Positions 25,584 through 33,188 of a stretch of DNA of 33,341 bases are shown piece by piece; position 1 is the first letter of the stretch, and every line of letters starts with the position of its first letter. The DNA comes from Candidatus Roizmanbacteria bacterium GW2011_GWA2_35_19 (lineage in GTDB: Bacteria > Patescibacteriota > Microgenomatia > UBA1406 > GWC2-37-13): positions 1 to 33,341 of the forward strand of contig LBQC01000017.1 in the NCBI GenBank assembly GCA_000990565.1. Direction: 5' to 3'. The notes under the pieces are model-generated. The model ran no database searches and was not told the origin of the DNA. It saw nothing but the letters and a program-made list of their open reading frames with translations. The translations under genes and the position numbers were made by a program.

Positions 25584-26530
25584 CTAGAACTGTTCCAGGA
25601 AACGAATGTCTCCTGAATAATAATTTCTAATATCATCAAGTCCATATTTCATCATAATTACGCGCTCTATACCGAATCCAAAAGCCCAACCAGAGTATTT
25701 TTTTGGGTCAATCCCGCCATCTTTCAAAACATTAGGGTGGACCATACCAGTCCCACCAAGTTCAAGCCATCCAGACTTGCAGACTTTACATCGGACACCC
25801 TCAGGGTGACCATTCTGCCTCTGGTCACCCTGAGGGTGTCCAGAAAAGCCAGTTCCCTTGCAAACAGTGCAGGTAATATCAACCTCAAATGAAGGTTCGG
25901 TAAGCCTTCAAATTGGTGAAACATCGGGGTGTGGGTGGCATCCCAGTTTGGCCGATAGCACTTGGAAATATTAATCATTCTAATTGGTGGCTGACCCACT
26001 CTTTTCATTTCTCTATTCTGGCCGTTTGAAGTATGAGGAGTTAAGACCATTCGGTCAAATTTTGGGTGGGCAGGAGCATTAATATATGATGTTTCAAAAT
26101 CATCTCTCGCTGGGTGGCCTTTTGGCATATTTAAAGACCCAAAAGCTCCCCATTCCCAGTCAACTTCTGGGTATGAAACTCTAATAAAACCGATTTTCTC
26201 AAAAATTTTGGTAATTTCTTCGACAGCTAAAGAAACAATGTGCAAGCTACCCCTCGGATAGATTTTACCAGGAAGTGTTGAGTCAAAGAATTCATCTGTT
26301 GTTTTACCCCTTAATTCTTTTCTCCTTACTTCGATTAATCGAAGTACATCGTTTTTAATCTTATTTACTTTTTGGCCATACTCGCGTTTTTCTTCGTTAG
26401 GAGTGTCTTTGATAGCCGAAAGTAACTTATTTATTTCACCATTACGGCCTAAATACTTTATTTCAAGTTGATTAATTTCTAGTAATGATTTAGAACCATT
26501 AATTTCAGTTTTATATTTTTTGGAATCCAT
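25584..26530 (-). pseudogene. pheS: phenylalanine--tRNA ligase alpha subunit, internal deletion plus frameshift near 25901
   Basis: N-terminal part to [11 protein letters not shown] in one frame; [18 protein letters not shown]…[48 protein letters not shown] in another; intervening catalytic segment absent. Confidence 0.85.
25793..25841. repeat. perfect 20-bp-arm inverted repeat inside pheS
   Basis: ggacaccctcagggtgacca-ttctgcctc-tggtcaccctgagggtgtcc. Confidence 0.9.
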
Positions 26531-28681: not shown

Positions 28682-29218
28682 TCATTTTCTTTTTGCAACT
28701 ACAGCCCTGATCACTCTTCCCTCAAGGCGCGGGGGCTTTGATACATTGACTTCTCCGAGGCTTCCTATATATTTGTTCATCAAGTCAAATGCCATCGGTT
28801 TTTTCATTACTTCTCGGCCTTTAAGAAGCATATTCACTCGCACTTGGTAGCCTTCTTTTAGGAACTCCTTACCTTTATTTTCAAGACGTTCAAGGTCAGC
28901 TACTCCGATAAATAAAGACAAAGATATATCCTTAGACCCGCTTTTCTTAATCCCCTTTTTTGCCTCTTTTTCCTTCTTCTCTTCTTGATAAAGGAATTTT
29001 TTAAAATCTATAAGTTTTGCAACTGGGGGTTTAGCGTGTTGGGCAATCAAAACAAGGTCGACATACTTTTCTTGAGCTAATCTTAATGCTTCTTGTTTCG
29101 AAATTACTCCTATTTGAGCGCCTTTATCATCTATAACACGCAAAGTAGGCGCTTCAATACGGTAATTTGTAATGTAATACTTCCTTGGTTTGTAGCTTGG
29201 TCTATGAAAACTTCTCAA
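28682..29218 (-). CDS. infC: translation initiation factor IF-3
   Basis: YYITNYRIEAPTLRVIDDKGAQIGVISKQEALRLAQEKYVDLVLIAQHAKPPVAKLIDFKKFLYQ. Confidence 0.95.
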   Translation of the reverse strand: MRSFHRPSYKPRKYYITNYRIEAPTLRVIDDKGAQIGVISKQEALRLAQEKYVDLVLIAQHAKPPVAKLIDFKKFLYQEEKKEKEAKKGIKKSGSKDISLSLFIGVADLERLENKGKEFLKEGYQVRVNMLLKGREVMKKPMAFDLMNKYIGSLGEVNVSKPPRLEGRVIRAVVAKRK

Positions 29219-30850
29219 TTTCTTCTTTTAATTTTAAAATAAATTCACTAACTGCTAATTGTCCTAAATCCTTTCCCTCTCTGGTTCTTACACTGACTTT
29301 ATAGACTTTATGGACTTTATAACTTTCGACTTCCTTATCTCCAATTATAACGAGATAAGGAACCTTTTGCAACGTTGCTTCTCTGATTTTTGCCCCCAGG
29401 GTTTTATTATCCGAATTTAACTCAGCTCTGATTCCTGCTAATTTTAACTCTGCCAAAACCTTAAGACTGAAATCTTTTTGTTTCTCAGAAATTGGTAAAA
29501 CAGCCACCTGAACCGGCGAAAGCCAAAGCGGGAAAGCACCGGCATAATGCTCGATCAAAAATGCCATTGTTCGCTCAAAGGCGCCAAGCGAAGCCCGGTG
29601 AATAACGACCGGCTCTTCTTCCTGACTTTCTTTGTTGATGAACTTAAGCCCAAATCGTTTAGGCATAACAAAATCGTACTGAACAGTAAATGCCGTGTCT
29701 TCTTTTCCGTTTACATTCTTCATTTGGACGTCAATTTTAGGACCATAAAAGGCTGCTTCATTTTCCGCTTCGTAATAAGGCACAGCCTGATTTTTCAGAA
29801 CCTTACGTAAAACATTCTCAGCATAATCCCACATTTTATCGTCCTTATAATATTTTTTAGAATCAGTTCTTGACCCGAGTGATAGTCTAAAGCGGAAATC
29901 AGTACCGGCCTTTAATCCAAAAGCTTTATTTATATAGCTTATAAGGTCAAGGACTTTATTAATTTCGCTTTCGGCCATTTTTTTAGGAGTTATGATATGG
30001 GCATCGCTTAGCAGAAATGTCCTGACCCTTATTAATCCAGTTAGTTCTCCGCTTTTTTCATATCTAAACTGTGGAGAAATCTCGGCGTACCTAATTGGCA
30101 TTTCGTGGTACGAATGAGGTTGAGTTTTATATAGGGCAAAATGATGAGGGCATGTCATTGGTCTCAAAATCAGCTCTTCATCATCTACAATCATCGGTGG
30201 ATACATTGTGTCTTTGTAATAAGGATAATGACCCGATGTCCGATATAGATCAACTTTAGCAATTGGAGGTGTTGAAACATGCTCATAATCCCGCTTTAAT
30301 TCTTCATCGACTATAAATCTTTCAAGAATTCTTTTAATCGTTGCGCCTTTACCAGTTAAAAGTGGTAATCCTTTTCCGACCATATCTGAGAAAGCAAAAA
30401 GTCCGAGATCTTTTCCAAGTTTCCTGTGATCTCTTTTTTTGGCCTCCTCAAGTCTTTTCAGATGTTCTTCCAATTCTTCTTTTGTCCCATCTTGCAGAGA
30501 TCTAAAAAGTCCCCAGGATCATTAGTCTGCAATTTTTTTCCTTCTTTCGCAAATTTTTCGGCCATTTCAACCTTATATTTATTATCTTTGAATAACTTTT
30601 TTGCTTCTTGCAGAGTTATTTCTTTGAATGAAAATTTTTGCCACTTTGGAAGAATCTCCCTCATTTTAGCTTCAATTTTAGGAAAATCCGCTTCAGAAAT
30701 ATTCCATTTACCCATATCGAAGTCCTGGTAAAAACCGTTTTCGATCGAAGGTCCAATTGCATTTAGTGCCCCTGGGTATAATTGTTTTACGGCGTGAGCG
30801 AGCAAATGTGCGCATGAATGTCTTAAATTATCCAAATTTTTATTTTCCAT
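29202..30850 (-). pseudogene. thrS: threonine--tRNA ligase (TGS-less), internal deletion plus frameshift near 30470-30495
   Basis: MENKNLDNLRHSCAHLLAHAVKQLYPGALNAIGPSIENGFYQDF…DFLDLCK | TKEELEEHLKRLEEAKKRDHRKLGKDLGLFAFSD…; segment between FLDLC and TKEEL absent. Confidence 0.88.
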
Positions 30851-30899: not shown

Positions 30900-30925
30900 G
30901 CTTTAATTATTTAATTAATTAAAGC
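30900..30925. repeat. AT-rich hairpin repeat GCTTTAATTATTTAATTAATTAAAGC overlapping the creatininase stop codon
   Basis: Identical to 19401-19426. Confidence 0.8.
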
Positions 30926-31740
30926 GATTTAATATTAGCAATTGGCCCTTTGTATTTTTTCAACCAACTTATAAAGTCTACCAAAACGTTTACCATATAA
31001 TCATGGTACTCTTTCCCTTTCTTCGGTGAGGCCTTTGAGGAATTGGAAAAAGATCCATCAGGAGCAAACGCTTTTTGTTCGTAACTATTCCAGGGGATAT
31101 CGATTACTTCTCCCGACTTTCCAAAAAGATCATACTGTGAATACTTCGAAAAAATCTTTTCATAATCTATTCCTTTTTTGGTCAATTTATCCTTTTTTAT
31201 TAAATGAGGATATTTATACCAAATATGAGACACTTCAAGTTCTCCCACGTGATGTTCTATATTATCCTTAATCTTTGAGGCGATTCCTTTAGCAATTTTC
31301 ATCGGATCGGCTATTGCAAAGAATACCTGAGGTAACTTGAATTCATGCAAATTTTTAACAGCAGAAAGGAGCGCTGGCAAGTTGGCACTTTTATGACCAT
31401 TGATTATGAGTATTTTTTTTACTCCGTTTCTAGCTAAGCTTTCGCTGATATCTTCAATGACGGATATAAGTGTTGAGGTTTTAAGTGACATAGTTCCGGC
31501 AAATCCAAGATGATGGCTTGAGTCTCCATACCATAAAGGCGGAGCAACAAGTACTCCGGTTTTTTTGGCCACATCCTCAGCTAATGCAATCGCGGCATAA
31601 CTATCAAGGCCCAAAGGACCAGTCAGTCCGTGTTCCTCTGTACTGCCAACTGGCAATATAATGATATTTTCTTTCTTGAGATAATTATTAACATCCTCCC
31701 AAGAAAGCTCATTGATCCAAACTGATTTTAGTTTATTCAT
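30919..31740 (-). CDS. creatininase-family amidohydrolase (MftE-like superfamily)
   Basis: ILPVGSTEEHGLTGPLGLDSYAAIALAEDVA, YGDSSHHLGFAGTMSL, ILIINGHKSANLPAL, HHVGELEVSHIW metal-ligand motifs. Confidence 0.88.
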   Translation of the reverse strand: MNKLKSVWINELSWEDVNNYLKKENIIILPVGSTEEHGLTGPLGLDSYAAIALAEDVAKKTGVLVAPPLWYGDSSHHLGFAGTMSLKTSTLISVIEDISESLARNGVKKILIINGHKSANLPALLSAVKNLHEFKLPQVFFAIADPMKIAKGIASKIKDNIEHHVGELEVSHIWYKYPHLIKKDKLTKKGIDYEKIFSKYSQYDLFGKSGEVIDIPWNSYEQKAFAPDGSFSNSSKASPKKGKEYHDYMVNVLVDFISWLKKYKGPIANIKSL

Positions 31741-31756
31741 ATATAAAAATTAATTT

Positions 31757-32548
31757 TTAATCATCTCTAAACCATGGTGGTGGTAAGATCATATTTCTAT
31801 TTAATTCGCGACTTTTATGACCGCCATGATGTCTTGTGTCATACCAATACATTTGAGCAATAGATTGTGGAAAAGTGTGTTCGGCTAATTCTCTTGATCC
31901 GTTAATAATAAATAAGAAGTCCCGCCAGTCAGGAATAAAAATTTGATCTTCAAGTTTTCGCATTAAGAAATAATAAAAAGCATTTAGAATACCATTAGAC
32001 TCATCATCTTCAATAGATACATCTGATTTATTGTGTCTTCCAGCCTGTTTTATTAAATCGCCTCTTATTTGATTAGGGATACGCATCCATTCATCAAATT
32101 CTACACCTTGTTTATGGTATAGTTGTTTTGAAGCCTCTGTCCAGGTAGGTAAAATCAATCTTTTTTCTTTATATAGATCTGATAATAAAACCCAATTAAA
32201 ACCCTTCGATGTTCCTTCATTTTGCATTAAATCCAAATATCCATGATCAGGCATACTGTTTGACAACCCATGAATATCCGCTCCAATTAGTGAAACTTCC
32301 ACACCAAATGGATAATTTTTAAGTAATTCATTTTGAACTTGTGCATATCTAGCCAGTAAAGCAATATCGCTTTTCCCTAAGTGATTTTTTCCACCTTGTC
32401 CAATAAATCCTGCTATTTGGATAGGTAATCCTTTTGAATGATTTTTCAAAATAGCACGTTCAAAAAGATTTCTATCATTAATACCTCCCTTTGTGACAAA
32501 AGGAATAATCCTATCTACGGTTTTTTGTAGACTAAATTCTGCATTCAT
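31757..32548 (-). CDS. conserved-looking hypothetical enzyme (IQIAGFIGQGGKNHLGKSDIALL, VSLIGADIHGLSNSMPDHGY); possible remote isonitrile-synthase-like similarity, unverified
   Basis: Long ORF with AAAGGAGGT Shine-Dalgarno 8 nt before ATG 32548. Confidence 0.75.
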   Translation of the reverse strand: MNAEFSLQKTVDRIIPFVTKGGINDRNLFERAILKNHSKGLPIQIAGFIGQGGKNHLGKSDIALLARYAQVQNELLKNYPFGVEVSLIGADIHGLSNSMPDHGYLDLMQNEGTSKGFNWVLLSDLYKEKRLILPTWTEASKQLYHKQGVEFDEWMRIPNQIRGDLIKQAGRHNKSDVSIEDDESNGILNAFYYFLMRKLEDQIFIPDWRDFLFIINGSRELAEHTFPQSIAQMYWYDTRHHGGHKSRELNRNMILPPPWFRDD

Positions 32549-32604
32549 ATTTTTCACCTCCTTTCCATAAAACGCCCTCCTTCGCTAAAGCTTCGAAGGG
32601 CAAA

Positions 32605-32629
32605 GAAAAACCCCGCTCTGGGCGGGGTT
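32605..32629 (-). terminator. intrinsic terminator between the 21-aa leader ORF and the downstream operon
   Basis: Minus strand AACCCCGC-CCAGA-GCGGGGTT TTTC. Confidence 0.85.
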
Positions 32630-32653
32630 GATTTTTTAAATTTTTAATCCATT

Positions 32654-32719
32654 CTAACCACCGCCCAAAGTCATAGGGGTTGTGGTAGTACAAACATTAT
32701 TATGATAATTTTTATCCAT
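32654..32719 (-). CDS. 21-aa leader/precursor peptide MDKNYHNNVCTTTTPMTLGGG
   Basis: ATG-TAG frame with GGAGGG upstream; Thr codons ACT ACC ACA ACC; followed by terminator with antiterminator complementarity. Confidence 0.55.
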   Translation of the reverse strand: MDKNYHNNVCTTTTPMTLGGG

Positions 32720-32721
32720 AT

Positions 32722-32748
32722 AAAAACAAAATCCCTCCTTTCGGAGGG
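32722..32748 (-). terminator. terminator-like hairpin CCCTCC-GAAA-GGAGGG then T-rich; also sequesters the leader Shine-Dalgarno
   Basis: Perfect 6-bp stem with GAAA loop, then ATTTTGTTTTT. Confidence 0.5.
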
Positions 32749-32759
32749 GTAAATTTTAC

Positions 32760-32789
32760 AAAAAAAACACCCTCCGTCAGGCGGGAGTG
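32760..32789 (-). terminator. hairpin CACTCCCG-CCTGA-CGGAGGGTG followed by T8
   Basis: 8-bp stem with one bulge, TTTTTTTT tract. Confidence 0.7.
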
Positions 32790-32824
32790 GTGCAAGCGCA
32801 AATTAAGATTCTTTCTATTTTCAT
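32777..32824 (-). CDS. 15-aa possible leader peptide MKIERILICACTTPA
   Basis: ATG 7 nt after TATAAT; stop codon lies in the terminator stem. Confidence 0.3.
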   Translation of the reverse strand: MKIERILICACTTPA

Positions 32825-32831
32825 AATTTTG

Positions 32832-32859
32832 ATTATATCACCAATTTTTATAAAATCAA
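32832..32859 (-). promoter_or_regulatory. promoter of the leader region
   Basis: TTGATT(32859-32854)-16-TGA.TATAAT(32837-32832), extended -10. Confidence 0.55.
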
Positions 32860-33188
32860 ACGTTGATTGGAAAAACTTTTTCCTCAAGTTTTCCGATCCG
32901 TTTATTGTGATCGTTAATAGAATTATCATCGGTTTTAAGCTGATCTAATACTTTATCTATTTTATCACTTAATTTTTCGTCGACCTTATCAATCTTATCA
33001 ATTAATTTCACCTCAACCTTATCAATCTTGTCACTTAATTTTTCGTTGACTTCCTTTATATAAGAATTACTTGCTGTGAATAAACCAACCATTTCTTTTA
33101 TGAGAATTTTATTATTTTTAACTAAAGCGCCACTTATAGCTTTGCTGACTGTGCCAGAAATATATTTTTTATCATCTTTTGTAAGCAT
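32856..33188 (-). CDS. coiled-coil hypothetical protein with 11-residue repeats
   Basis: EKLSDKIDKVE VKLIDKIDKVD EKLSDKIDKVL hendecad repeats. Confidence 0.7.
   Translation of the reverse strand: MLTKDDKKYISGTVSKAISGALVKNNKILIKEMVGLFTASNSYIKEVNEKLSDKIDKVEVKLIDKIDKVDEKLSDKIDKVLDQLKTDDNSINDHNKRIGKLEEKVFPINV

Follow-up and report, generated by a model that had tools for sequence, protein, structure and literature searches.

Predicted tandem attenuators with threonine and cysteine codons ahead of a thrS gene run in Candidatus Roizmanbacteria

Transcription attenuation of the trp and thr type is classical. In the E. coli thr and trp leaders (RF00506, Thr_leader, and RF00513, Trp_leader), an ORF with a codon run is combined with four mutually exclusive segments and a terminator with a U-tract. 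By its sequence, the Candidatus Roizmanbacteria locus described here appears to be built in the same way. Unlike the E. coli leaders, its attenuators are stacked and the mRNA of its first leader is predicted to be leaderless. The genes behind them are an aminoacyl-tRNA synthetase gene and a pair made up of an unknown gene (X) and a creatininase-family gene, and not a threonine biosynthetic operon as in E. coli thr.

Streptomyces lividans has leaderless attenuator leader peptides before leuS, trpS, thrS and other genes (PMC8079986). The likeness to our locus lies in the leaderless peptides and in their place before aminoacyl-tRNA synthetase genes, including thrL before thrS. In S. lividans thrL (MKRVRPFLETTPGFVPAR), however, there are two Thr codons and a clear terminator is lacking (PMC8079986), whereas the Roizmanbacteria leaders mostly count 3 to 7 Thr codons, and both their terminator and their antiterminator are conserved. 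Salmonella mgtCBR is preceded by the tandem attenuators mgtM and mgtP, by which ATP and proline are sensed (PMC3641672). There too, one leader carries two short ORFs with an attenuator each, and one of them reads Pro codons. In contrast to mgtCBR, the Roizmanbacteria locus has Thr and Cys codons at both stages, and the ribosome-binding site of leader 2 is putatively provided by segment 4 of stage 1. In actinobacterial cys operons and at B. longum cbs, leader peptides with runs of Cys codons stand ahead of cysteine genes, as in the present family, but no terminator was found there (PMC1262725). Cys codons of the Roizmanbacteria type lie in complete attenuators, for example before cystathionine-beta-synthase-like and cystathionine-lyase-family genes. 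A literature search on attenuation in CPR bacteria (Patescibacteria), incomplete in its coverage, found nothing. The kind of mechanism is known; a CPR-wide attenuator system and a relay reading cysteine and threonine look new.

The DNA analysed (the window) is the 33,341-nt contig LBQC01000017.1 of Candidatus Roizmanbacteria bacterium GW2011_GWA2_35_19. The original prediction, made from the letters alone, placed one threonine attenuator on its minus strand. We consider it very likely that the gene run X-creatininase-thrS-infC is controlled by two serial transcription attenuators of the ribosome-mediated kind; there are no RNA or expression data. Both attenuators stand ahead of this run, whose genes share one orientation and are separated by short gaps, with rplT and pheS/pheT further on. 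The genes are as follows.

32557..32562, minus strand: Shine-Dalgarno sequence AGGAGG of gene X (from the sequence)
31757..32548, minus strand: gene X, with a predicted Rossmann fold like that of class-I aminoacyl-tRNA synthetases and PvcA (from the predicted structure)
30919..31740, minus strand: creatininase-family amidohydrolase gene (PF02633, 3e-56)
29202..30850, minus strand: thrS, broken by a 121-bp deletion and a frameshift (from relatives, aligned to L038)
28682..29218, minus strand: infC, the next gene of the same run (by homology)

Thus thrS does lie downstream in the same orientation, behind an unknown enzyme and a creatininase as originally described, and it is this gene that carries the lesion. 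The damage may be an assembly error or real; a genome search found no second thrS. In pheS, the C-terminal part appears to continue in another frame (window 25724-25800), and the pheS and thrS frame changes together suggest indel errors in the contig. Upstream of pheS, a neighbouring divergent ORF leaves only 33 bp for a possible Phe leader.

The reported element is the second of the two attenuators. Its 21-aa leader ORF, Thr codons and segments were all found where they had been placed on the minus strand. The pairing of segments 1 and 2 at 8 of 10 positions, and that of segments 2 and 3 through 10 bp and one bulged T, also read as described.

32719-32602, minus strand: attenuator 2, the reported element, second of two tandem attenuators
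32654..32719, minus strand: leader peptide 2, MDKNYHNNVCTTTTPMTLGGG and stop codon, the reported ORF (from the sequence and relatives)
32678..32689, minus strand: four consecutive Thr codons ACT ACC ACA ACC, within segment 1 (from the sequence)
32656..32666, minus strand: segment 2, GGGCGGTGGTT, Gly codons to stop (from the sequence and folding)
32620..32629, minus strand: segment 3, AACCCCGCCC (from folding and the comparison of type II units)
32609..32616, minus strand: segment 4, GCGGGGTT (from the terminator)
32602..32608, minus strand: U-rich tract of terminator 2, TTTCTTT after segment 4 (from the sequence)

With RNAfold, the energies of attenuator 2 are -12.1 kcal/mol for 1:2, -15.9 kcal/mol for 2:3 (segments alone) and about -14 kcal/mol for 3:4. 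A covariance model built without the reported element matched it in the window with 33.6 bits (E 4.7e-6). By inspection, attenuator 2 has no obvious promoter of its own and sits behind terminator 1. Between terminator 2 and gene X there is a further hairpin, GCCCTTCG...CGAAGGAGGGC followed by GTTTT (window 32601-32574), whose core CTTCGCTAAAGCTTCG was not found in the relatives' loci that were fetched.

The original picture was incomplete in that it missed a complete attenuator just upstream, the inferred part of Cys codons in the signal and the predicted leaderless start of the first leader. The upstream attenuator has the following parts.

32859-32722, minus strand: attenuator 1 with its promoter, a complete attenuator just upstream of the reported element
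32854..32859, minus strand: -35 box TTGATT, with a 16-nt spacer to the -10 box
32832..32837, minus strand: -10 box TATAAT, with the ATG of leader 1 7 nt further on
32777..32824, minus strand: leader peptide 1, MKIERILICACTTPA and stop codon, with Cys-Ala-Cys-Thr-Thr (from the sequence and relatives)
32784..32791, minus strand: segment 1, ACCACTCC, in the Thr codons (from folding)
32768..32775, minus strand: segment 2, GGAGGGTG, right after the stop codon (from folding and comparison)
32743..32749, minus strand: segment 3, CCCCTCC (from folding and covariation)
32733..32738, minus strand: segment 4, GGAGGG, the sole Shine-Dalgarno-like sequence upstream of leader 2
32722..32732, minus strand: U-rich tract of terminator 1 (from the sequence)

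The counterparts of leader 1 in relatives contain ICTCTTTL, SCTCTTFL, NCTTTTPQ, NNTTTTAS and NCTCTTRL. Transcription would begin on the A of the leader-1 ATG or on a neighbouring nucleotide, about 7 nt past the -10 box, and the mRNA is therefore predicted to be leaderless. Among 34 leaders examined, 30 have a -10-like hexamer before the start codon. In 24 of these 30 the hexamer matches at 5 or more of 6 positions, the median gap to the start codon is 7 nt, and one has a Shine-Dalgarno sequence. Only 2.2% of control ATGs reached the median promoter score. In-frame start codons were picked by promoter score, which somewhat favours the result. The second leaders of X loci were left out of this test; by eye, they show no arrangement of -10 box and start codon like that of the first leaders. 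In the window, the Shine-Dalgarno spacing of leader 2 is long, about 13 nt.

A small coiled-coil-like protein ORF (110 aa, window 33188-32856) ends just upstream of attenuator 1. A similar ORF elsewhere (L062:7895-8239) has the C-terminus ...KVFITTTSS, and an attenuator match (G034:C32:8216-8292) falls on its 3′ end. The C-terminus of an ordinary protein may thus serve as a leader.

In the proposed mechanism, stalling, termination, read-through, the response to cysteine, the relay and the extension of the transcript to thrS are inferred. A ribosome would translate the Cys-Ala-Cys-Thr-Thr stretch of leader 1. If charged tRNA-Thr or tRNA-Cys were scarce, it would stall on the Thr or Cys codons and cover segment 1; segments 2 and 3 would then pair and block terminator 3:4. 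If the tRNAs were charged, the ribosome would reach the stop codon and cover segment 2, and terminator 3:4 would end transcription. On a read-through transcript, the same decision would be repeated at leader 2 (Cys-Thr-Thr-Thr-Thr) ahead of gene X. Since segment 4 of terminator 1 is the only Shine-Dalgarno-like sequence of leader 2, we infer that antitermination would be needed to expose it. The same feature upstream of second leaders is the basis of the relay idea.

To compare the locus with relatives, we distinguished type I units, in which segment 2 begins at or just after the stop codon, from type II units, in which it lies within the last codons. All six Roizmanbacteria X loci found have the tandem pair, and in most of them Cys codons accompany the Thr codons. 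At those of five genomes (G016, G002, G070, G009 and G041), a type I leader is followed by a type II leader, as in the window. Daviesbacteria (L105) and Chisholmbacteria (L114) likewise have X-creatininase-thrS in this order with Cys/Thr leaders. Among named relatives, contigs of Candidatus Roizmanbacteria come closest to the X-creatininase pair; the contig search with X alone found no relative, and relatives were found with the creatininase as the query.

The gene thrS was found in 71 of 73 genomes of the family. Short ORFs with Thr runs lie directly upstream of it in many relatives (for example MKKEIKFTTTTIS, MKNNIVITTTTDSC and MNKYILINTTTTFSC), and many thrS and hisS genes of the family have no such leader. 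A class-wide model search found Thr leaders in several further families; some of them stand immediately ahead of thrS. Of 234 terminators at thrS or X loci, 39 have a Thr-rich short ORF ahead of them; Leu, which ranks second among the amino acids, has 11. The loci were picked only for thrS or X, so that the enrichment holds inside chosen loci and not genome-wide.

Genes of the epimerase family (threonine-dehydrogenase-like) and of the aminotransferase fold (KBL-like) precede thrS at L053, L066, L061, L085 and L062, and at L053 and L066 they are themselves preceded by Thr leaders. One idea for why threonine scarcity should raise such genes is their reverse use to make threonine. Further tandem attenuators, with TTT+TTTTT or YYY+YYYY, were seen at L163, L185 and L190. 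The TTT+TTTTT tandem precedes a 325-aa protein of unknown family, and the YYY+YYYY tandems precede proteins of 354 to 375 aa. The 325-aa and 354-aa proteins have no Pfam match (the 375-aa one was not scanned).

Folding was computed in two ribosome states, by an equilibrium model that ignores kinetics. For a 15-nt footprint, the median terminator probability is 0.04 with the ribosome stalled on the codon run and 0.98 with the ribosome at the stop codon. In the window it rises from 0.02 to 1.00 in attenuator 1 and from 0.00 to 0.97 in attenuator 2. At this footprint, 31 of 40 units switch (change >0.5) and 9 do not; between 9 and 18 nt, the number of switching units ranges from 24 to 35. Under the same treatment, only 15 of 100 other terminators change (Fisher p 3e-12). 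In the untranslated RNA of both window elements, the terminator is not favoured.

The 2:3 helix is better than its shuffles (p<0.05) in 31 of 40 units, as against 9 of 101 other terminators. In an alignment of 31 type I units, the double-change cells number 28 for 2:3 (11.9 in shuffles) and 9 for 3:4 (2.6 in shuffles). The covariation score of either helix was reached by none of 500 shuffles, and slid controls scored lower. Column-wise covariation of 1:2 shows no excess over the control, and the fixed-column 2:3 count of the eight type II units shows none over shuffles. Because the alignments shift by one base between rows, per-sequence folding was used for both. It gives a z below -1 for 2:3 in 39 of 40 units, on which the support for type II 2:3 rests, and for 1:2 in 35 of 40, a moderate support. 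Median energies over the 40 units are -14.8 (1:2), -14.6 (2:3) and -11.4 kcal/mol (3:4). The alternation of 1:2, 2:3 and 3:4 that was originally claimed is thus supported by 2:3 and 3:4 helices that are conserved and covary in relatives; for 1:2, the comparison with homologs did not rise above the control column by column.

These data bear on a simpler form of attenuation without antiterminator, in which a stalled ribosome only blocks nearby terminators. Several first leaders have a T-run behind the 1:2 hairpin, whose 5′ arm contains the Thr codons, and this hairpin could itself terminate. In attenuator 1 of the window it is GGAGGGTGTTTTTTTT, and T-runs also follow segment 2 at L037, L053, L066, L070 and L075. 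However, such a T-run is absent from many units, and mere blocking has no need of 2:3, which nevertheless has the strongest covariation and beats its shuffles in the proportion given above. We regard this form as improbable.

A further reading takes the hairpins for ordinary tandem intrinsic terminators behind the upstream gene of 110 aa and the poly-Thr ORF for a product of chance. The end of the 110-aa ORF (33188-32856) just upstream and the succession of several terminator-like hairpins would fit. Against this stand the conserved leaders, the cognate codon runs elsewhere, the covariation and the promoter directly before leader 1. Conservation, covariation and promoter largely refute this explanation, and we give it next to no weight.

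Translational control of gene X, or arrest by the nascent peptide, instead of transcription termination would agree with leaders that look translated and lie near gene X. Every unit, however, has a GC-rich hairpin with a U-tract at its end, upstream of the ribosome-binding site, and the peptide is not conserved outside the codon run, which argues against arrest by a specific peptide. Control of this sort seems very improbable. Nothing in the window reaches an Rfam gathering score. No T-box match was obtained at that score in the window, and none is listed up to E 10 in 32560-32900; a T-box riboswitch was rejected on this ground. Below threshold, the reported element has Trp_leader (28.3 bits) and Thr_leader (23.7 bits) among its best matches, both on the correct strand; the gathering scores are 41 and, for RF00506, 55.

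The tandem attenuators show several of the features asked of an attenuator: a leader ORF with a codon run, a 3:4 terminator ahead of a structural gene, a compensated 2:3 helix that excludes 3:4, and a downstream gene in the metabolism of the sensed amino acid (thrS in many relatives, other cognate genes elsewhere). At the level of sequence, the leaders, the conserved 2:3 and 3:4 helices with compensatory changes, the position of the promoter and the match of codon runs to genes are shown.

The match extends to other amino acids. Covariance model R1 was trained on type I Thr/Cys units only. In the family it recovers the second element of the window, which was outside the training set, and further loci. 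Runs of His codons stand before hisS in 7 of 8 such loci, one of them in the window's own genome (L191; leader ...KFVFHHHLH, G000:C29:7425-7499). HHH precedes a gene for a CntK-like histidine racemase (L170) and a related gene (L184), and HHH or HH precedes genes of the Asp/Glu-racemase family (L165; L169 by eye). The other runs are QQQQ before gatC (L167), IIISII before ilvE in the window's own genome (L194; leader IIISIITTPLGG, G000:C8:24579-24655), CCC before a cystathionine-lyase/synthase-family gene (L186) and a PLP enzyme gene (L164), YYY before a gene of the tyrosine phenol-lyase/tryptophanase family (L177, L178) and MMM before a gene for (R)-SAM hydrolase (L193). The genes behind non-Thr runs are mostly ones for the amino acid encoded by the run. 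Free replacement of the Thr codons would have refuted the original prediction and was not seen; they are retained before thrS, and His, Gln, Tyr, Ile, Met or Cys codons take their place before other genes.

Only representative downstream genes were named by family searches; other hisS genes were recognised by eye or in a later hisS search. For several R1 matches, no downstream gene is annotated or a clear run is missing (for example L179, L182 and L198), and some matches are weak. When hisS was used as a wider test, His leaders were upstream in only about 7 of 30 loci. At some other hisS loci, the leader precedes a racemase gene located ahead of hisS. In genomes G021 and G068, hisS lies on the same strand behind racemase-type genes with His leaders. 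The codon run supports the CntK-like gene as a histidine racemase, and such a run may predict the substrate of a racemase.

Cys codons may hint at the role of the genes before thrS. A leader with CTCTT (L062) precedes a cystathionine-beta-synthase-like gene and a cystathionine-lyase-family gene. Behind them come a gene of the NAD-dependent epimerase family, taken to be threonine-dehydrogenase-like, one of the aminotransferase fold, taken to be KBL-like, and then thrS. At L196, a leader with ICTCTSS precedes a frameshifted ORF that by eye looks like a ParB-like serine kinase (SerK/SbnI type), and the locus also carries a cysteine-synthase-like ORF behind this leader. ATC hydrolase has a role in making cysteine. 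At one X-creatininase locus, L118, the leader is of the Cys-only kind (MNRIISQTICCLCCEPSELGCF...) and a neighbouring gene encodes ATC hydrolase (PF14196, E 1.1e-15), which suggests that the X-creatininase pair probably serves cysteine supply. The reaction of X is unknown. Its product has 266 aa, and the predicted structure has a pLDDT of 79 and a pTM of 0.79. The protein gave nothing significant against Pfam, NCBIfam and PDB sequences. The model has structural similarity to class-I tyrosyl-tRNA synthetases and to PvcA and PIsnA, which are isonitrile synthases (E 2e-5 to 1e-3, TM 0.35-0.59), and one member of the X family has a weak DIT1_PvcA match (E 0.022).

A wider proposal joins these observations: a shared scaffold on leaderless CPR transcripts, a serial Cys/Thr relay, and X-creatininase as an unknown route of cysteine supply. 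By the first part, Roizmanbacteria and related CPR lineages would sense amino acids largely in this way, with the codon run suited to the genes that follow. By the second, the 3′ arm of terminator 1 would be the ribosome-binding site of leader 2, and the supply of cysteine and threonine would be read twice before expression. We hold this combined proposal to be possible and put it forward tentatively, with somewhat more doubt than belief.

Gene regulation in CPR bacteria is almost unknown. An attenuator common to families and readable by its codons would tell from the run which amino acid the downstream genes answer to. The attenuators also lead one to expect that, in CPR bacteria, translation of leaderless mRNA is tightly coupled to its transcription.
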